The notes under the pieces were generated by a model that did not search any database, was not told the origin of the DNA, and was given only the letters and a program-made list of their open reading frames with translations. A DNA stretch of 64,000 bases from Polyangiaceae bacterium (GTDB taxonomy: Bacteria; Myxococcota_A; Polyangia; Polyangiales; Polyangiaceae), in the NCBI GenBank assembly GCA_025353725.1, contig JANXOF010000042.1:1-64000 (forward strand), in the 5' to 3' direction. Both the position numbers and the translations under genes were made by a program. Position 1 is the stretch's first letter. Each line of letters begins with the position of its first letter. This document shows, piece by piece, positions 7,577 to 37,902 of the stretch.

Positions 7577-10500
7577 GTGCGAAAAGGCCGACGCGTCTCA
7601 AGGTCACAGCCATATCGCGGAGCTCGCCTCGAAGACGAGTCCCGCTCCGGTTCAAACCGCGAGGGGAAGACCGCTCCAGGCCGTGCACTTCCCGCGGCGG
7701 CACTTGTCACCGCCCTTGCGTTCGGCTGTTCGCTGTCGTCCTCCTCCATTCGCGCGCCGACATCCGTGCCGTCGACGGCTCTAGCGGTAACATCGCCAAC
7801 GTCTAACGGTACCGCTTTGGCGCCCGAAGGCTCTGCGGCGCGCCTGGTCGCGACGGAAGAGGCGGCCCGCATCGCGCGACTCGAGGCCGACGCCAGCGCT
7901 GCTCCGGTCGACGTGCGAATGGCGCCGTCCGCGCGCGGCGCTCTCGGCGCGTGGCTTGTCGCAGGGCCGTTCCAAGCGAACCGGCCTGCGCTCGACGCAG
8001 ACCCGAGCGGAATCCACGAACCCGACTTTGTCGTGTCATCGGGTGGGGTGGCATCCGCCGATCGCGAGCGGTCGACTCAGGGGCGCCCCGGTCGAAAAGC
8101 GTCAGGCACGCGGTGGGGCATCGCGTCGAGCAGCGCGGGCCCGATCGACCTGAAAACAGCCCTCGAATCAACGTCCGGCGACGTCATCGCGTACGCCGGA
8201 GGAACACTTCATGTCGAGCGCTCCGGGCACTACGTGCTTTTGCTAAGCGTCGACGACGGAGTGCGTGTCACGCTCGATGGCCGCGTGATGTTTTCGCGCG
8301 ACGTCGCGCGACCGCTCCGCGAGGACGACGACGTGATCCCTCTGGACCTCTCGGCAGGCGACCACACGGTCCTGCTTAAACTCCACCAACGCGATAGTGC
8401 GTGGGCATTTCGCGCTCGTTTTGTCGACGCAACCCTGGGGCCACCCGCCGGCTCGTACCTCAGGCTGCCGGGCACCACGGTTGACGACGCTTACGGCCTG
8501 GCCGTGAAAATGGCCGCGGTCTCGTTCAAGCGCGCCTTCGATGCCAAGGTGGACCCGCCGCGTTATCGGCCGAAACTCACCGTGACGTATCCCGAAGGCG
8601 CGCCGCGGGGTGTGGCCGTCGCCGTGCGCGCGCGACTTGTCGGATCGAACAGCGAAGCGCCCGTTTTCGACGTCGATGCCGGAAGTCTCTTGGCAACGTC
8701 GGCCGGGCCCTCAGAGCTTCTCGTCGCACTTCCCGACGTTTCAGCCTTCGCGGCGTCGCGGACTCTCGAGACGCTTGTCGAAGGACGCGTGGTGAAAAAC
8801 GCCTTTCCTTCGCGACCTGCGGCCGAGCAAGCCGTGGCCCACGCGGCGCGCGCGCTAACGGGCGTCGCGACCGATGCGCCGTTCCTGGCGGAGGGGTCTC
8901 TCGACTCAGTGCGCTACCTCACGCGTCGGCTGGAAGGACTCCTCGACCGCGGCGATACCGACGTCGAAGCTCAAACGGAAGAGGCGCGTGAGCTCGATCG
9001 CATGGCTTTTAGCCTCGAAACGCGCGTCGATCCCTTCGAGGGGCGAACGGGTGCGACGAGGCGCGCGCTGCGTTCGAGCCTTGATGGCGACTTTTCAGAA
9101 CTCGGGGTCTACGTGCCTCCGGGGTACCGCACGGGCGCCGCCAAAACGTATCCACTGGTCGTCGGACTGCACGGCCTGAACGGATACGCGATGGGCGTGA
9201 TGAGGTGGCTTTTCGGCTTTGACGACCCGAAGCGCGACCAAGCCTGGGAAGATCGCCATGTCGGTTCGCTTCCGCCTATCGACGCGTTCGTGATTACGCC
9301 GCTCGGTCACGGGAATGCCCTCTACCGAGAGCTTGGCGAGGTCGACGTGATGCACGCTGTCGAGTGGGCGCAGAGGCGATACCCGATCGACGCCTCTCGC
9401 GTGACCATCACGGGCATGTCGATGGGCGGCATCGGAGCTGCATCGTTGCCACTTCACAGGCCGCACGTGTTCGCGGGTTCCGAACCCCTCTGCGGCTATC
9501 ACAGCACGCTGATGCGAAGTGACGTCGCCGGTCGTGCGCTTCGTCCGTGGGAGCGCTACCTCGCGGAGGAGCGCTCTAACGTGATGTGGGCGGAGAACGG
9601 TGAGCACCTCCCGCTCTTCGTGGTCCACGGTACGCAAGACTTGCCCGAGGAGAACAGCGGCGTCCTCATCGATCGCTACGAAAAGCTTCAATTTTCGGTC
9701 AAACATGAACACCCCGAGTCTGGCCACAACGTTTGGCAGCAGACGTACGAGGACTTGAAGGGCCTCACGTGGTTGATGAACCGGCGCCTCGAGCGGCATC
9801 CTTCTCATGTGCGCCTCAAGACCTCGCGCACGCGGTGGGGAAAAAGCGCGTGGGTGGCCATTGACGAGCTCGCGAGCGAGTCCGCTTGGGCCGAAGTCGA
9901 CCTGCGCGCAAACCCGAAAACGCACCGTGTGACGGGCTCGACGCGCGGCGTTTCACAGCTCACGTTGACGCGCGATGAGACTCTTTTCGGGAACGCGGCG
10001 GTCGACCTCACGATCGACGGCCAGCCCCTGACGTTCGAGGAAGGCGAAGCCCTGGTGGTCGGTCGCGAGGCGACGAACGGTAGTCGCGAAACGCGCAGCG
10101 AGTGGCACAAGGGACCGCTCGCACACGCGGGAATCTTCAAACATGGGAATGTGACGGGTCCTCTCCGCGACGCTTTTTCGGAGCCTCTTCTCTTCGTCTA
10201 CGGCGACAGCGAGCCCGCAGAAGCCAGGGCGAACGAACAGGTAGCGCTCGCGTTTGCGAAGATTCGGCAAGGGGTGCAGGTCGCGTATCCCATCCTGAGC
10301 GACAGCGCATTTCTCGCAAAGAACGAGCCGCTCGCCAACGAACGCGCGCTCTTCCTCGTGGGAAGGACGAATCGCGTGCTCGCGAAGCTCGCCGAAGTGC
10401 GACCGTTTTCGATCCGCGTCGAGGAGGGCGCGGTGACGGTAGGAAACGAGCGATTCACGGGAAAAGAACTCGGTGCGGCGTTCATCTATCCGAACCCCGC

Positions 10501-10783
10501 GCGCCCCGACAGGTACGTCGTGGTCGTCGCGGGAGCCGATGCCGCAGGCACCCTGCGAGCCATGTCGCTACCGGATCTACTGCCCGATTTCGCCGTTTGG
10601 GACGAAGCCGTGGCGCCGTCACGCGGACAGATCGTGCTCGGCGCGGGCTCGCTTCGCGCTGCTGGTTTTTTTACGAAGACCTGGGAGCTCCCGTCGAAAA
10701 CGTTCGACCCTTACGCAAAGCGGTCGCACGTCCCCGATGCGCCCGTTCCGATTTTCGCCGGCGTCGCGTCCGAGTCGCACTAG
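7577..10783 (+). CDS. Large lipoprotein alpha/beta hydrolase (esterase/peptidase-like)
   Basis: Exported protein of 1068 aa starting at GTG. A hydrophobic stretch ends in AFGC with Cys51 as a possible lipid anchor. Residues of about 185-300 form a beta-rich module (SGHYVLLLSVDDGVRVTLDGRVMFS, DHTVLLKLHQ) like PA14 or carbohydrate-binding jelly rolls. The hydrolase domain lies near 520-740: oxyanion segment VVGLHGLNGY, nucleophile Ser615 in GMSMGG, Asp688 in HGTQDLP and His717 in SGHNVW. That set is typical of PHB-depolymerase/LpqC-like and prolyl-oligopeptidase-like enzymes. The last 330 residues form further beta-rich and Rossmann-like segments (LFVYGDSE, ERALFLVGRTN) of unclear function. The substrate could be an ester or a peptide and cannot be told from here. 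Confidence 0.82.
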   Translation: MRKGRRVSRSQPYRGARLEDESRSGSNREGKTAPGRALPAAALVTALAFGCSLSSSSIRAPTSVPSTALAVTSPTSNGTALAPEGSAARLVATEEAARIARLEADASAAPVDVRMAPSARGALGAWLVAGPFQANRPALDADPSGIHEPDFVVSSGGVASADRERSTQGRPGRKASGTRWGIASSSAGPIDLKTALESTSGDVIAYAGGTLHVERSGHYVLLLSVDDGVRVTLDGRVMFSRDVARPLREDDDVIPLDLSAGDHTVLLKLHQRDSAWAFRARFVDATLGPPAGSYLRLPGTTVDDAYGLAVKMAAVSFKRAFDAKVDPPRYRPKLTVTYPEGAPRGVAVAVRARLVGSNSEAPVFDVDAGSLLATSAGPSELLVALPDVSAFAASRTLETLVEGRVVKNAFPSRPAAEQAVAHAARALTGVATDAPFLAEGSLDSVRYLTRRLEGLLDRGDTDVEAQTEEARELDRMAFSLETRVDPFEGRTGATRRALRSSLDGDFSELGVYVPPGYRTGAAKTYPLVVGLHGLNGYAMGVMRWLFGFDDPKRDQAWEDRHVGSLPPIDAFVITPLGHGNALYRELGEVDVMHAVEWAQRRYPIDASRVTITGMSMGGIGAASLPLHRPHVFAGSEPLCGYHSTLMRSDVAGRALRPWERYLAEERSNVMWAENGEHLPLFVVHGTQDLPEENSGVLIDRYEKLQFSVKHEHPESGHNVWQQTYEDLKGLTWLMNRRLERHPSHVRLKTSRTRWGKSAWVAIDELASESAWAEVDLRANPKTHRVTGSTRGVSQLTLTRDETLFGNAAVDLTIDGQPLTFEEGEALVVGREATNGSRETRSEWHKGPLAHAGIFKHGNVTGPLRDAFSEPLLFVYGDSEPAEARANEQVALAFAKIRQGVQVAYPILSDSAFLAKNEPLANERALFLVGRTNRVLAKLAEVRPFSIRVEEGAVTVGNERFTGKELGAAFIYPNPARPDRYVVVVAGADAAGTLRAMSLPDLLPDFAVWDEAVAPSRGQIVLGAGSLRAAGFFTKTWELPSKTFDPYAKRSHVPDAPVPIFAGVASESH

Positions 10784-25962: not shown

Positions 25963-28900
25963 TCAGTCACCAGGAGAAAAGGCAAGGCTTGCCGCGGCGA
26001 GCGTTCCCACCCCTGCCTGCCCGACTCTGCCTTCCAGTCGCTCAAACGCGACGCCTGCCCAGAAGTGAGGGCCACCGAGCGGCACACGGATGTCGATGCC
26101 CTCGACGCGGCGCGCTCCTGCGATCTTCAAACCCCACGCGTTGGCAGACAACCGCGAGCCCCAAAACCACGGCAGCTCAATGCGGGCCGCCGCGGGCACG
26201 AATGTGCCGGTCGCCTCAAATGGCTCCTCGAGGCGAATCGTCCCGTTGCCGGCCATAGCCCCGGCGAACACGCTCGCGAAGCGAGTGCGATAACCGAAGA
26301 GGAGCGAGTAATCGAACTGACTCGCCCCTACGTCGCTTCCGTCGACCGTAATGCCTGCGAGCATCAGGCTTGCGCGATCATGCAAGGCGAATCCATCGCG
26401 GACTTCGGTTGTGATCGATGGAACAATGAGGCCGATAACCGACGACTCGACCGCGACGTAGACGGTTTGACCCGACACGGGAACAGTTCCGACGGGAGCT
26501 GAAGACGTAGGGTCAAGCGCGAGTGACGAGATACCTGCCGAAAAACTCATGGGCGGAATCGTGTACGTGGGGCGACCCACGTTTCCAAGCCATGATTCGT
26601 CGCCAGTTGCGGCGGTGTCCCGAGCCGTTGGCGCGCTTGCGGGTTGGGAGGACGAGGCCGCGGTGAACGACATCGACGACGGATCCCCGGACGGGATAAA
26701 AGCCGCCCAGTAGAACGGATGGGCAAGCGTCTTCGATTGGGAAAGCCCCATCTGCACGTGACGAAGGGACTCCGAGCGCCCGACCCCGCTCTTCAATTGC
26801 GTGTAATATCCCTTCATCAGATAGCTTGTCGCGTCGTCGTCGACCGACCAGAGGCTCATCACGAGCGAGCGCGCACCCGCCATGGTCAACGCACGACGAA
26901 GCCCGTAGACGCCCTCCCCGTTTCGGATTTCGCCTTCGGCGGTTTGGCACGCGGACATCACGACTAATTCCGTTCCACTCAAGTCTAGGGAAGAGGCTTC
27001 TAAGGCTGTCAGAATGCCATCTTCCCCGTCTCCGCCCTTTTGCGACGAGGCCCCGGCGAAGGCGAGTCCAGACCGAAGAAGTGGACTCTCCGCACTCGCT
27101 ACGCTTTTACGGACTTCCGACTCGTCGAGAACAAGACCCCGCGTGTCCGCAAGACGCATCGCGGTGTCCCCCAAAAAGAACCCGTGCGTCGCGAGGTGCA
27201 AAACGCGCGGATGGGCGATGTTCTTCACCGCGCGCTCGGTCGCTTGGTCGCCCTTCAGGACTTGAGCGTCTTCGAGCGACGCCTTGATCGACTTCGCCTC
27301 CTCCTCGGTTCCTTCGAGTGGCGAGAACCTTACCTTCGCGAAGCGCGAAGAGGACGACTCTGGCTTCGTGCCGTTCATCGCAAAACTTGGATTGGCGACG
27401 ACGACGACCGCGCTCGAATCGGTCGACGCCCCCTCGAGGCGAAGGAGGTCGCGGCCACTCGTGAGGTAGGTGAACGTGTACTTCGCAACAAGGTAGTCGC
27501 CTCCCCCGCGGAGCGCGGCAAACGGGATCCCATTGAGCGCCCCGTCGGGCGAAAGCATGATTTTGGTCTTTCCCCCCAAAAGCGCCTCGACCGGCTTCCA
27601 CACGGCGTCGTAAAGGCGACCGGCGGGCGCCGCGGGATCGCGGTCTGGGCTACCGAGCGCGGCTCGGAACGAGCGAACCTGCTCGTCGATGACGGAGGCG
27701 TCGCCGAGGTCTACGCTCGTGGGCGCACGCCCGCTCACGCCGTCGAGCACAAAGGCGACGTAGTGCACCCCCTTCGCGTCAGAAAGAGTTTTGTAGTCCG
27801 GATTCATGGGTTCGAACGCGACGATTTCGACGAGCGCGTGATCTTTTGGAAGCGCCGCGCGCACGGACTCGACGGACACCGCCTTCGTCGCGAGGCGAAA
27901 GGCTTCACTCTTTTCACTCAGTGCCTGCTCGATCGTCCGAGACTCATTCTCCATCGATTTCGCGCGTTCGACATTTTGACCACTCGCACTCAACTGAGCA
28001 ATCGAGGCACGAACCGTTGCGAGGCGACTCAGGAGATCGCGGGTCTCCGTGGTTACGCCACGACGTACAGCCTCGTTCTCCCCGCTCATCGCGTCGAGCA
28101 CTCGCCCTTTGGTTCTCAACACCTGAGAGAGTGCCAGGTACGTCAACTTCGGATTCGAGTTGCCTGCGCGAACTTGGGCGGTAAGCGTTTTCTGATAAGG
28201 AAGCAGAAAGGAAGATAGGTACGACCTTTTCTGCTCCTCGGAGCCGCTCGCGAGGACGCGTACGATGTTTTCTTCACGCGCGTCGAAACAGCGTGAAATG
28301 GGGTCAAGGGATCGCGCCAGATCTCCGGACGCCCAATAGACTTCGCCCAAATCGCATTCACTGTTCCGAAACGTGAAGCTTTTTTCTCCAAACATCGCTT
28401 TCACGGAGTCTTGCACTTCTCTGAAGTACGCCTCCGCCTTGACGTAGTTGCCGCGCTTTCGATGATGCCAACCGTAGGCACTTGCGAGCCCCATCGAGAG
28501 CATGGCCTTCAGTTTTGACGGCGCCGCCTCCATGCTGTCGAGTCGCGACCGTCCCTTGTCGTACTCGCGCTCCGCTTCGGAAAAATTTCCCATTTCATCG
28601 TGGAGTTTTCCGAGCCTTATACCCGCGAAGAGGGACATAAGCTCATTGCCGGGTGAAGCGTCGAGGAGCGACCGAGCTTTCTTTACCAGCGTGATGGCTT
28701 CGGCGTAGTCACGACGCGCTTCGAGGACCCGTGAGAGGCCGAAAATCGCGTTTGGCACTCTGTCTTCCGCGCGAGCTCGCGCAATGTCGTGGGCCCTCAT
28801 GAATGCTGGCGCGGCGCGCTCTTCCTCGCCTCGACTCAGGTAAAGATTGCCCAGTGCCGTGAGCGTATCGATGAGTGCGGGCGACACCATTCCCGCGCGC

Positions 28901-29619
28901 TCTTCTTCAAGGGCCAGCGCGCGCAGGTAGCGCGCCTCGGCCTTGGTCAAGCGCATACTGCCTTCGTAGATCTCAGCGGCTACGACGTTCGCCTTCGCGA
29001 GCTCACCGCTCGAAGTCTCTTTCATCGTGTCGGCGGCTGGGAGCGCAGACTCGAGTAAAACCATGGCCTCGCTCGTGCGCCCGTCGCGATGAAGCGCCAT
29101 CGCCGCTTGAATGCGGCTGAGCGGCGTCGCTGAAGCTTGGCCACCCGCCGCGGATGGCGCTGCGGGCGCGTCTTTTTCCGCACCTCGTAAGCGAGCGACC
29201 GCGTCGCGCCACTCCCCAAGCTCATCGCGGCGCTTGCTTGCGGCTCCCAGTTTCTCGTGAAACGCGATTTCTTGCTCGAGGACCTCGCGGCCCCGCCGTA
29301 CGTTTCCTGCCTTCACGAGAAATACGGAGAGCCGAAGCTTCTGGTCGGTGAGCTCCGTGCGAAAGAGCGGCCTCACAGCTTCCGGCAACGTGGAGAGCAC
29401 TTGCGTCTCTTGCATCCGAATCGACTGCTCTTCCGCCGCGGCCGCTTCGGCAAAGCTCCCGCTGTCACTGAGCGCGACAGCTTTCTTGTCGAGGCGGTCG
29501 GCTTCGTCAATGACTGCGGAGGACGACGGCTCGGCGAACGCGAGAGACGACCGCGACGCGCAGGCCACCAGCACGAGCGACATGTGGACAAAACGCCGAC
29601 CCGACCGGGCAAAGTTCAT
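25963..29619 (-). CDS. TPR-CHAT protein with C-terminal beta-rich domain
   Basis: From ATG 29619 the protein is 1218 aa (a TTG at 29643 would add eight residues). A hydrophobic leader (HMSLVLVACASRSSLAFAE) suits export, either with a lipid Cys or cut after AFA. Residues of about 30-520 are helical repeats of TPR type (EERAAPAFMRAHDIARARA, FSEAEREYDKGRSRLDSM). A coiled-coil-like stretch precedes the CHAT protease-like domain (about 560-975), which keeps both catalytic residues: His812 in LHLATHGFF and Cys891 in VMSACQTAEGE. The last 240 residues are not part of CHAT; they hold short alternating strands with a final FAGVAFERLEGRVG-type hairpin pattern suggestive of a beta barrel or sandwich. 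Family members with TPR and CHAT alone are common in bacteria and are caspase-like. The substrate is unknown. Confidence 0.85.
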   Translation of the reverse strand: MNFARSGRRFVHMSLVLVACASRSSLAFAEPSSSAVIDEADRLDKKAVALSDSGSFAEAAAAEEQSIRMQETQVLSTLPEAVRPLFRTELTDQKLRLSVFLVKAGNVRRGREVLEQEIAFHEKLGAASKRRDELGEWRDAVARLRGAEKDAPAAPSAAGGQASATPLSRIQAAMALHRDGRTSEAMVLLESALPAADTMKETSSGELAKANVVAAEIYEGSMRLTKAEARYLRALALEEERAGMVSPALIDTLTALGNLYLSRGEEERAAPAFMRAHDIARARAEDRVPNAIFGLSRVLEARRDYAEAITLVKKARSLLDASPGNELMSLFAGIRLGKLHDEMGNFSEAEREYDKGRSRLDSMEAAPSKLKAMLSMGLASAYGWHHRKRGNYVKAEAYFREVQDSVKAMFGEKSFTFRNSECDLGEVYWASGDLARSLDPISRCFDAREENIVRVLASGSEEQKRSYLSSFLLPYQKTLTAQVRAGNSNPKLTYLALSQVLRTKGRVLDAMSGENEAVRRGVTTETRDLLSRLATVRASIAQLSASGQNVERAKSMENESRTIEQALSEKSEAFRLATKAVSVESVRAALPKDHALVEIVAFEPMNPDYKTLSDAKGVHYVAFVLDGVSGRAPTSVDLGDASVIDEQVRSFRAALGSPDRDPAAPAGRLYDAVWKPVEALLGGKTKIMLSPDGALNGIPFAALRGGGDYLVAKYTFTYLTSGRDLLRLEGASTDSSAVVVVANPSFAMNGTKPESSSSRFAKVRFSPLEGTEEEAKSIKASLEDAQVLKGDQATERAVKNIAHPRVLHLATHGFFLGDTAMRLADTRGLVLDESEVRKSVASAESPLLRSGLAFAGASSQKGGDGEDGILTALEASSLDLSGTELVVMSACQTAEGEIRNGEGVYGLRRALTMAGARSLVMSLWSVDDDATSYLMKGYYTQLKSGVGRSESLRHVQMGLSQSKTLAHPFYWAAFIPSGDPSSMSFTAASSSQPASAPTARDTAATGDESWLGNVGRPTYTIPPMSFSAGISSLALDPTSSAPVGTVPVSGQTVYVAVESSVIGLIVPSITTEVRDGFALHDRASLMLAGITVDGSDVGASQFDYSLLFGYRTRFASVFAGAMAGNGTIRLEEPFEATGTFVPAAARIELPWFWGSRLSANAWGLKIAGARRVEGIDIRVPLGGPHFWAGVAFERLEGRVGQAGVGTLAAASLAFSPGD

Positions 29620-29766
29620 TCGATTGATTAGGCAGCGGCGCAACCGTGCCCGTCAACGGCGGTCTTAGGCCTACACGGGAGAAGCCCGAGACGAGAAGTC
29701 GTCCCGTGCGCGTTCGGAAGCAACGATCTGTTGTCTCGAAACAATACCGGCGACCGCGTGAGCAAT

Positions 29767-34777: not shown

Positions 34778-36850
34778 CTAAGTTTTCTGGTTGTAATTCG
34801 TGTTTTCGAGCAAAATAACATTCGACTTCGAGCGACTCTCCCCGACGCTCGTAATGTAAACGGCCGGCTGGTCCTGCACTGGGCACACCTTTTCGCAGGC
34901 GCCGCAGCCAATGCACAAGCTCGGATCGACATGAGGGCGCTGGAGCTTCACGGTGAGCATCGCAGGTTGTTCGCCGCTCGGTCCGGGCTTGCTATCGCGG
35001 ACAGGGGCTTCGACCTCTTCGACCCAGATAGCTTTCGGCGAGGTGGGGCAAAATTCTTCGCACACGATGCAGGGCGTCTGCATGCTCCACGGGAGACAGC
35101 GCCCATGGTCGTAGAAGGCCGTGCCAATTTTGACCGGCGGAACGCCGAGGCCAAGCTTCTCTTTTTCAGTGATCTTCTGAATGGCCCCCGTCGGGCACAC
35201 TTGACCACAAAGGACGCACGAGTGCTCGCAGTAGCCGATTCGGGCAATAAGAATGGGGGTCCAAAGGCCTTCGATTCCTGCCTCAAACAAAGCCGGATGA
35301 AGTGCGTTGTTCGGACAGACTTTCATGCACTCTGCACAACGGATGCAACGCTCGAGAAACGCGCGCTCCTCGACTGCCCCCGGCGGCCGAATAACTTTCG
35401 CGTGGTAATTGACGTCGAGCGAATCGGCGATACGCGCCATCGGAATGAACGCGGCCCCCGCCGCCGTCGTCGCTAGGAGCGTACGACGTTGAAGCGCGGG
35501 CGCAGACAGCGCGCTCGTGCGGTTCGGGAGGAATCGAAATTTGATGACATCTTCCGGGCACGCCGTCTCGCAGTTGAGACAGACATGGCATTCGTCCTGG
35601 CGCCACTTCACGCCGCCCTGGGGCGAGTCGGCTCCTTGGCAGTGGACAAGGCACAAGTTGCAGTCCGTGCACTTCGCGTGGTCCTTCTCCATTCCAAAAA
35701 GCGCGAATTTGGCGAAGACGCCTAAAAACGCTCCGAGTGGGCAGAGCACGCGGCACCAGAACCGAGGCACAAACCTGTTCATGAAGAGCACGGCGACGAG
35801 GAGCGCGACAATGAGCCAAGTTTGGTGGAAGTAAAACTGATGCGAGCCCCAAACCGCACTTGCTAATGCGTCTTGGGTCTTGTCGGCCGCGGCTTGAAGA
35901 GGGCGGACGGGCACGTCCTGCACCGCGCCGAGGCCTCTGTGCGCCACGTATTGAAGACCTGGGATGACGCCGAGACCAATGGCACGAACGGCAATGCAAA
36001 TAGGGTCGAAGAGGCCTCCGATAGCGCTCCCCGCGACGGCGGAAAGCAGGAACGCGTACATGAGATAGTACTTTACGTTTTGGCGCCGCTCGTGCGTCTT
36101 GTTCGCGGCTACGCGCGCGGCACCACGGCCCTTCCGCGACGGCAAAATCCAACCAAAGAAATGGTGGAGTGTCCCAAACGGACATATCCATCCGCAGAAC
36201 ACGCGGCCTACGACCAGCGTAAGCGCAATTAGACCCACGCTCCAAAGCAGTCCGCGATACACGGTATGCGTTGAGAGCACGGTCATCGCGCCGACGAACG
36301 GGTCCGCCAGCAAAAATGCCTCGACGGGGAGCGGCAAGCGCACGGGGGTGTCGGCTTTGGCCGCGAAACTCCCGTGGAAGCCCGTCTGGAAAAGGAAATA
36401 CATAAAAAGAGAGAAGAAACCAACCTGCGACGCGCGCCTTGCCCACATGAGCACGCGGATCGACCGACGCGCGGGGATACCCGACCCGGGTCGCTTCGGG
36501 TCCACCTTCTTCTTTTTCTGAGGCGTGCCGACGCCTATGCCGAGGGCAGCTTCGACAGCGCTGGCTCGTGCGTGCTCGGCCGCGGCCATGACCTCTGGTT
36601 CTTTTCGCGGCGGAGGCTTAGCCGGAATGAGCTGCGTGACCGCCTCGGGACTTCGTCGAGTTTTTGGAGTCCACGACGCGTCTCGGTCGATCGCCTGAAC
36701 CGCGCCCACTTCCCCCGTTTTCCAACCGATCGGCTCAACGTGGGCGTGTGAGCTCTCGGTGTCGTGCGTCAACGCGTGTTCCAGCGCGGCGACGTCAAGC
36801 GTGACTCCCGCGTGCGCCTTCACTCGAACCGAACTTGTCTCGACCTCCAT
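34778..36850 (-). CDS. Membrane iron-sulfur protein: NapH/NosR-like half fused to NapG/MauM-like half
   Basis: Protein of 690 aa. Residues 1-130 are polar with no clear domain. Five or so membrane helices lie from about 140 to 390, with the two cysteine motifs of the NapH/NosR/RdxA type, FCGWICPFG (Cys219, Cys223) and FWCRVLCPLG (Cys366, Cys370). Two four-cysteine clusters follow (394/397/400/404 and 421/424/427/431). Near 455 the sequence QRRTLLATTAAGAAFIP looks like a twin-arginine leader inside the chain, and the C-terminal half has four more clusters (502-512, 541-552, 585-601, 646-656). This is a ferredoxin-like electron-transfer protein, probably moving electrons across or along the membrane. 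Its start overlaps the DUF362 stop by 1 nt, so they form a unit. Partners and substrate are unknown. Confidence 0.85.
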   Translation of the reverse strand: MEVETSSVRVKAHAGVTLDVAALEHALTHDTESSHAHVEPIGWKTGEVGAVQAIDRDASWTPKTRRSPEAVTQLIPAKPPPRKEPEVMAAAEHARASAVEAALGIGVGTPQKKKKVDPKRPGSGIPARRSIRVLMWARRASQVGFFSLFMYFLFQTGFHGSFAAKADTPVRLPLPVEAFLLADPFVGAMTVLSTHTVYRGLLWSVGLIALTLVVGRVFCGWICPFGTLHHFFGWILPSRKGRGAARVAANKTHERRQNVKYYLMYAFLLSAVAGSAIGGLFDPICIAVRAIGLGVIPGLQYVAHRGLGAVQDVPVRPLQAAADKTQDALASAVWGSHQFYFHQTWLIVALLVAVLFMNRFVPRFWCRVLCPLGAFLGVFAKFALFGMEKDHAKCTDCNLCLVHCQGADSPQGGVKWRQDECHVCLNCETACPEDVIKFRFLPNRTSALSAPALQRRTLLATTAAGAAFIPMARIADSLDVNYHAKVIRPPGAVEERAFLERCIRCAECMKVCPNNALHPALFEAGIEGLWTPILIARIGYCEHSCVLCGQVCPTGAIQKITEKEKLGLGVPPVKIGTAFYDHGRCLPWSMQTPCIVCEEFCPTSPKAIWVEEVEAPVRDSKPGPSGEQPAMLTVKLQRPHVDPSLCIGCGACEKVCPVQDQPAVYITSVGESRSKSNVILLENTNYNQKT

Positions 36851-37902
36851 CAGACGTCTTTCACACGCAACGTTTCCCAGTACATCGTGCCGAGTCCGCG
36901 CTCGTGGCCCATCTTTAGGTAAGGCACATTGTCACGATGTTGGCCGATGAGCGTCGCCCCAAACGCGTCGGCCGCGACCTGGTCAACCGTTGCAAAAACG
37001 GTATTCAGAACTTTGGTATCGTCGATGTTTCCGCCTTGTGGGCCGTTGCGCATGAGCACGCGGATGGCGTCGACCACGACGAGCGTGGGCCGCATGAACG
37101 TCGCAAGATCGGCTATGGAAACGTCAATATTTTGATGAAGGCGGTTTCGACGGCCCCCGAGAACGCCGTACCAATTTTTCATCGCAGCCGTGTACTTCGC
37201 AAGGTTATGGTGCTTTGCGACTGGAACGTTGATGACTTTGTCGGCGTCTACAAGGGTCGTAAAAATCGGCCATTCGTCGAGAATCTCCCCCTTCATGCGC
37301 GTGGTGCGAAAGCGATGTTCGGCGGGTAATACGACCTCCGCGCCGAGGCTATATGCCTTTCGCCATATCCCAGAGCGCTGAAAGCACCGATTCGGGTCGT
37401 TGCATGAGCCGTCAGCGACCACCACCTTCTTGGCCCCCGCCTCGAACGCGAGCTGGATGACCGCGCCTACGACGTCGGGGTTTGTGTTCGCCGCATGAAT
37501 CGGCATGCGATCCCAACCGATATTCGGCTTGACGACCACGACGTCGCCGCGGCTGATAAACCGCTTCATGCCGCCCATCGCCTCCACCACCCGGCGCACG
37601 AGCTGCTCTGCAGTGGGCTCGGGATCTCCGGGTTTCGGCTTCGCTATCGCGAGCTCAGCAAAGTCCGCGGCGCTGCTCGCTAGCCGATAATCGCGCACCT
37701 GACGCGCGGCGGAAGACGTCGCAGCGCCGAAGCCTCCCTGGTCCCACACGGCGCGGCCGACGAGAGCGCTTGCCGCAAGAACCGAAGCGCTGAGGCCGAC
37801 TCGTTTTATGAGCTCACGCCGTGACGGATTCGTAAGCTTCTGCGAAAGCGATTCCGACGGCACGCATGGCGTCTCGCTCCCGGGCCTATTTTCCGCGTCC
37901 AT
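36850..37902 (-). CDS. Tat-exported DUF362 protein
   Basis: Protein of 350 aa with a clear twin-arginine signal at residues 27-50 (SRRELIKRVGLSASVLAASAL), so it is folded with a cofactor or partner before export. The DUF362 domain follows: GDVVVVKPNIGWDR, NPDVVGAVIQLAFEAGAKKVVVADG, VINVPVAKHHNLAKYTAAMKNWYGVLGG and DAIRVLMRNGPQGG. DUF362 proteins often carry or sit beside iron-sulfur modules; this copy lacks a ferredoxin domain and has few cysteines, so the clusters of its coupled partner supply that role. It is the first gene of a two-gene unit. Function is not established in the family. Confidence 0.88.
   Translation of the reverse strand: MDAENRPGSETPCVPSESLSQKLTNPSRRELIKRVGLSASVLAASALVGRAVWDQGGFGAATSSAARQVRDYRLASSAADFAELAIAKPKPGDPEPTAEQLVRRVVEAMGGMKRFISRGDVVVVKPNIGWDRMPIHAANTNPDVVGAVIQLAFEAGAKKVVVADGSCNDPNRCFQRSGIWRKAYSLGAEVVLPAEHRFRTTRMKGEILDEWPIFTTLVDADKVINVPVAKHHNLAKYTAAMKNWYGVLGGRRNRLHQNIDVSIADLATFMRPTLVVVDAIRVLMRNGPQGGNIDDTKVLNTVFATVDQVAADAFGATLIGQHRDNVPYLKMGHERGLGTMYWETLRVKDV

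Follow-up and report, generated by a model that had tools for sequence, protein, structure and literature searches.

A twin-arginine DUF362 protein with a predicted LarA-like fold is conserved beside a NapH-NapG fusion polyferredoxin

Results

A coupled gene pair on the minus strand

The window, the 64,000-nucleotide stretch of DNA analysed here, belongs to a 6.6 Mb Myxococcota genome (G000) whose relatives are Labilithrix and Polyangiaceae MAGs. Two genes on its minus strand encode proteins of 350 and 690 aa (Table 1), with one base at the junction common to both ORFs (...GTCTGATGGAG...). The 1-nt overlap given by an initial annotation of the sequence was confirmed in both its coordinates and the shared base. 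The 350-aa protein matches PF04015 (DUF362) at 5.1e-47, with 161 bits against a gathering cut-off of 24, and starts with a Tat leader of the SRRELIKRVG... type, in agreement with the twin-arginine exported DUF362 protein of that annotation. The motifs it listed for the 690-aa chain are likewise all present, namely two NapH-type CxxxCP membrane motifs, CGWICP (219-224) and CRVLCP (366-371), exactly six four-cysteine clusters (starting at residues 394, 421, 502, 541, 585 and 646) and a pair of arginines at 455-456.

Table 1. Features of the DUF362-NapHG locus in the window
Feature	Position	Strand	Basis
DUF362 (PF04015) protein, 350 aa, with Tat leader and predicted LarA-like cofactor domain	36850..37902	-	profile match, alignment, model
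Invariant arginine pair R28-R29 in the DUF362 Tat leader (48 homologues)	37816..37821	-	alignment
DUF362 residues 88-323, predicted to fold like the nickel-pincer-nucleotide (NPN)-binding N-terminal domain of LarA (Z 15-18)	36934..37641	-	model comparison
DUF362 H232-x9-K242-x13-H256 motif, aligned with LarA H174-x9-K184-x15-H200	37135..37209	-	alignments
1-nt overlap of DUF362 stop and NapHG start codons (TGATG)	36850..36850	-	sequence
NapH-NapG fused polyferredoxin, 690 aa	34778..36850	-	profile matches, alignment
NapH-like half, residues ~136-442: membrane segments, two CxxxCP, two [4Fe-4S] sites (394-404, 421-431), expected cytoplasmic	35525..36445	-	profile; topology by analogy with PFD
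RR at 455-456 followed by the fifth hydrophobic segment (457-475), putative Tat-type signal anchor	35426..35488	-	alignment; PFD precedent
NapG-like half, residues 480-667, four [4Fe-4S] sites (502-512, 541-552, 585-601, 646-656), expected periplasmic	34850..35413	-	profile and sequence

The 690-aa protein is a fusion of a known kind

The N-terminal half of the 690-aa protein matches TIGR02163 NapH (1.6e-25, best stretch 176-297) and its C-terminal half NF007012 NapG (9.9e-26, residues 452-667). These matches, together with an internal RR that is conserved in 52 aligned homologues (R456 invariant, R455 in at least 90%), bear out the earlier reading of a NapH-NapG fusion with an internal Tat signal, which we refer to as NapHG. 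The equivalog cut-offs of NCBIfam were missed for NapG (90.4 against 269 bits), NapH (78.6 against 234 bits), NosR (68.3 against 1000 bits) and CcoG (22.6 against 316.7 bits).

One chain thus combines the NapH CxxxCP motifs with the NapG four-cluster domain, and the conserved RR immediately precedes its fifth hydrophobic segment. The same anatomy was described for the MLMS-1 polyferredoxin PFD (Q1NSB0), a NapH-NapG fusion dual-targeted by Sec and Tat, in which a conserved RR precedes TMD5 (Tooke et al., 2017; PMC5449189). Reporters made with PFD revealed that passage across TMD5 is Tat-dependent and that the remainder of the protein is inserted without Tat (PMC5449189); Tat-dependent insertion of the C-terminal domain, established for PFD only, is predicted in the window protein. 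Whereas PFD has seven [4Fe-4S] clusters, three of them cytoplasmic, NapHG has six, and its PFD-like anatomy, the conserved RR and the only moderate hydrophobicity of residues 457-475 argue that two of these are most likely in the cytoplasm and four in the periplasm. The fusion is therefore not new. The 2017 study tied PFD to no pathway of its own, and was not among the literature matches for the word DUF362.

DUF362 and NapHG are conserved together across phyla

Scanning the contigs of genomes for NapHG yielded 80 homologous loci, 71 of which had room upstream or a DUF362 gene already found. DUF362 lies directly upstream on the same strand at 68 of these 71 testable loci, and at all three exceptions it is found elsewhere in the genome, scored as the same subfamily in two. 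The pair is present in Sorangium, Polyangium, Minicystis, Labilithrix and many Myxococcota MAGs, and also in Acidobacteriota-type MAGs (Terriglobia, Blastocatellia, Thermoanaerobaculia), in Poribacteria and Latescibacterota, and in Armatimonadota/Armatimonadetes MAGs; a Verrucomicrobia locus (L103) is cut off upstream, and DUF362 is present in its genome. We also followed co-occurrence in samples of 29 and 235 genomes, each from a single phylum, with DUF362 counted by PF04015, and in the larger sample DUF362 was present in 36 of the 37 genomes with NapHG. The pairing is far beyond chance, since it is conserved across phyla. A search for conserved pairs had been proposed in the initial annotation as the check on its reading, and neither outcome that it regarded as refuting, a pair not conserved together or homologues of both proteins in an assigned pathway, was found.

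NapHG shares domain order, cluster pattern and the predicted topology of its halves with the NapG/NapH quinol dehydrogenase of nitrate respiration (E. coli, Wolinella), and NapH and NapG are the best NCBIfam matches of the two halves. It might on these grounds be an ordinary NapGH-type dehydrogenase in one chain that feeds a known terminal reductase encoded elsewhere, for example nitrate reductase, with DUF362 an incidental neighbor. We strongly disfavor this reading and consider it very improbable. Unlike NapG and NapH, the window protein is a single chain paired with DUF362 and DUF6599; its scores of 79-90 bits lie under curated cut-offs of 213-269, and the adjacency of DUF362 over several phyla, along with its presence in nearly every genome with NapHG, argues against an incidental role.

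No paper was found in the literature searched on DUF362 with NapH, DUF6599, PF20244 or a NapHG fusion. Neither a module of DUF362, NapHG and DUF6599 nor the pairing of the fusion with DUF362 was found described there. Close relatives of this DUF362 protein may also act without NapHG, as a paralogous copy in one genome (G016; L034) has no NapHG within the surrounding 12 kb.

Flanking genes were considered as a clue to the pathway and set aside, since the sole gene in upstream synteny across the genus is a divergent MATE gene and no enzyme partner was seen. Aldo/keto reductases with Tat leaders adjoin DUF362-NapHG at three loci in Acidobacteriota-type and Poribacteria MAGs (L100, L105, L111), one of which (L105) also encodes an additional stand-alone NapG-like protein; this arrangement is suggestive, not general.

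DUF6599 accompanies the pair

Of the 29 relatives, the 22 with the pair, and none of the other seven, each have one copy of a third family, DUF6599 (PF20244); the 22 include one genome (G007) with only the DUF362 half found, on a contig without NapHG. Across the 235 phylum genomes, DUF6599 is present in 33 of 37 with NapHG, as against 3 of 198 without it. Outside the family its gene adjoins the pair, usually in the order DUF6599-DUF362-NapHG, and in a groundwater deltaproteobacterial MAG a single ORF (L095:5998-8226) encodes NapHG with a C-terminal DUF6599 domain (E 1.5e-31). In the window genome DUF6599 is an unlinked lipoprotein gene (G000:C90:135103-135693).

The DUF6599 model comprises at most two Mog1/PsbP/LpqN-like domains (best Z 11.7); Foldseek returned no match at E <1e-3 with this model, and no mechanism emerged. 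Domains of this type include assembly factors, and NapHG matches the NosR and CcoG profiles weakly. The three proteins could in principle form an assembly or maturation system, in which NapHG would be a periplasmic electron donor comparable to CcoG or NosR, and DUF362 and DUF6599 would be accessory factors for another exported metalloprotein; that no dedicated enzyme gene is conserved beside the pair in the family would be in keeping with such a role. However, the curated cut-offs of NosR, CcoG and NapGH are all missed widely, no co-conserved target protein was seen beside the pair, and DUF362 itself has a predicted enzyme-type fold. We think a maturation role improbable.

Within the family, the neighborhood of DUF6599 contains pilus-type genes (prepilin-like and PilY1-like ORFs), which we took as synteny and not as an indication of function. 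DUF6599 and larC lie about 15-19 kb apart on one contig in five members of the family (G216, G125, G137, G076 and G095), which is possibly synteny only.

DUF362 has the predicted fold of the LarA cofactor domain

Searches with the DUF362 sequence against solved structures returned nothing relevant. A model built from an alignment of 48 homologues (pLDDT 89.6) matched the N-domains of LarA-family proteins over residues 88-323, with Z 15.2-18.0 and an rmsd of 2.6-3.2 Å over 200-212 residues; the closest unrelated fold scored Z 5.5. Comparison of the model thus shows, computationally, that DUF362 has the fold of the N-terminal cofactor domain of LarA. The two Pfam families, PF04015 and Lar_N (PF09861), are separate and have clan CL0471 in common.

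In LarA, a lactate racemase of the NPN-dependent lactate/malate racemase superfamily, NPN, the nickel-pincer nucleotide, is tethered to a lysine via a thioamide, a histidine completes the nickel coordination, and His108 and His174 form the acid/base pair. Alignments and motif spacing, that is, comparison at the level of sequence, place DUF362 His232-x9-Lys242-x13-His256 opposite LarA His174-x9-Lys184-x15-His200, which are the catalytic, NPN-anchoring and Ni-ligand residues, respectively. None of the three varies among the 48 homologues, and they belong to only nine invariant residues in 16 very diverse DUF362 proteins (mean column identity 19%). When the broader DUF362 family was compared with nine LarA proteins, profile against profile (E 2e-7, prob 93.6), the His, Lys and His came into register with His174, Lys184 and His200, and in a mixed alignment of eight DUF362 and four LarA proteins the only invariant columns were A220, H232, K242 and H256. 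A subfamily-specific profile (A3) matched LarA weakly (E 0.007, prob 5), and the likeness is clear only by profile and structure comparison.

DUF362 is nevertheless not a LarA, since the alignments have no His at the position of His108 and the C-terminal substrate-binding domain is absent, with 27 residues left after the 88-323 match. In addition, the position of LarA Asp72 is an invariant Asn, and DUF362, in contrast to the LarA superfamily, has a Tat leader and is coupled to an iron-sulfur membrane protein. With His108 and the substrate domain missing, the active site would need completion by a partner, and DUF362 may use its cofactor differently from LarA. Of the 16 diverse DUF362 proteins, five carry Fer4 domains, in keeping with a repeated association of the Lys/His site with iron-sulfur chains.

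DUF362 is linked to NPN synthesis genes

The genes larB and larC stand side by side in the window genome, both above equivalog cut-offs. They do not by themselves point to DUF362, because a LarA homologue is present as well. The only known clients of the LarB/LarC/LarE pathway are LarA homologues. The link is seen in the wider sample. larC is found in 35 of 37 phylum genomes with NapHG; within the order it is present in 23 of 23 genomes with DUF362, as against 1 of 13 without; and among phylum genomes that lack LarA, it accompanies DUF362 in 60 of 65, compared with 17 of 71 genomes without DUF362 (Fisher 6e-17, kinship ignored). In family f5, the one genome with DUF362 (G207) is also the only one with larC. 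Here DUF362 lies directly downstream of larB-larC-larE (G207:C33; L172:7358-11978), and the genome has no LarA. A carotenoid-oxygenase-like (RPE65) gene comes next in this cluster, which may be horizontally acquired; the sampled f5 members are otherwise without larC and DUF362.

About 15% of genomes, including most cyanobacteria, make NPN by larB/C/E without LarA; the Synechocystis genes were shown to make NPN, the client protein is still sought, and NPN proteins other than LarA are said to await identification (mBio 2024, PMC11796402). Haloferax volcanii has a likewise unexplained larBCE set. Among our control genomes, both Synechococcus elongatus and H. volcanii have DUF362 and larC with no LarA. 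DUF362 fits these LarA-less larBCE cases, though its fold is LarA-like; the literature searched yielded no report of NPN in DUF362. Conversely, larC occurs with neither LarA nor DUF362 in 17 phylum genomes and in the controls C. glutamicum and M. jannaschii, whereas nine genomes have DUF362 without larC; DUF362 thus cannot explain all NPN synthesis.

These nine genomes, the loss of the catalytic His108, the replacement of Asp72 by an invariant Asn and the Fer4 domains, which may mean that iron-sulfur chemistry is the real theme of the family, raise another possibility. DUF362 could keep the LarA fold and Lys/His site and bind some other cofactor or metal, such as a different nucleotide, with NapHG supplying or accepting electrons in a quinone-linked periplasmic oxidoreductase. 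We see this as unlikely, though a more serious contender than a maturation role: the residues that are strictly kept are those that in LarA tether NPN and bind nickel, and DUF362 tracks larC where LarA is absent and adjoins larBCE in G207.

Discussion

We suggest that the gene pair encodes the central part of a redox module outside the cytoplasm, whose three components are DUF6599, DUF362 and NapHG. That DUF362 is a non-LarA family of NPN-using proteins, and that the pair is an NPN oxidoreductase acting outside the cytoplasm and connected to the quinone pool, in which NPN serves net electron transfer, is to our mind an evenly balanced proposition. We give the same even chance to the mechanism as a whole, in which a Tat-exported NPN protein exchanges electrons with the quinone pool via NapHG in a module that includes DUF6599. 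A periplasmic quinone-linked oxidoreductase in general, whatever its cofactor, is more probable than either. To our knowledge, racemases and epimerases are the only enzymes in which NPN has been found to date.

In this mechanism, DUF362 would take up a LarA-type cofactor as it folds in the cytoplasm, most likely NPN tethered to Lys242 with nickel held by His256, and would be exported in the folded state through Tat, a route that suits proteins folded with their cofactor in place. NapHG would be inserted by Sec for four helices and by Tat for the fifth, so that two of its [4Fe-4S] clusters would be cytoplasmic and the other four periplasmic. From the computed fold, cofactor-anchoring residues, gene coupling, three-way co-occurrence and linkage to NPN synthesis genes we infer NPN binding and formation of a complex, in which electrons or hydride equivalents would travel among three sites, namely the cofactor of DUF362, the clusters of NapG and, at the NapH part, the quinone pool, with the substrate and the direction of electron flow left free by the model. 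The hydride step of LarA chemistry, from a 2-hydroxy acid onto NPN, would here lead to net oxidation or reduction and not to racemization. A probable role for DUF6599, which is a lipoprotein or a periplasmic protein anchored in the membrane, is the docking or assembly of the complex.

The initial annotation was right about the fusion and the coupling, and had missed DUF6599 and the likeness to LarA with its conserved Lys and His. This likeness turns the unknown electron acceptor into a specific and testable hypothesis. If it is true, DUF362 would be the sought non-LarA NPN protein, and PF04015 and PF20244, both families of unknown function, would gain a first lead to what they do, as would the Sec/Tat polyferredoxins. 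Given the match in fold and residues and the linkage to larBCE, the question of whether DUF362 is an NPN client can be tested directly in the existing E. coli LarBCE expression system.

Two other genes in the window and one elsewhere in the genome deserve mention. A 1068-aa ORF on the plus strand (7577-10783) has no Pfam match at 1e-5 and may be a genuine uncharacterized protein or an ORF in the wrong frame, and a 1226-aa protein encoded on the minus strand (25963-29643) combines TPR repeats with a CHAT (caspase-like) domain. Outside the window, the same genome encodes a second DUF362 protein (G000:C90:178501-180500; L173) with an RR leader, which matches both PF04015 (2e-18) and Lar_N (4e-6) and so forms a bridge in sequence between the two families.
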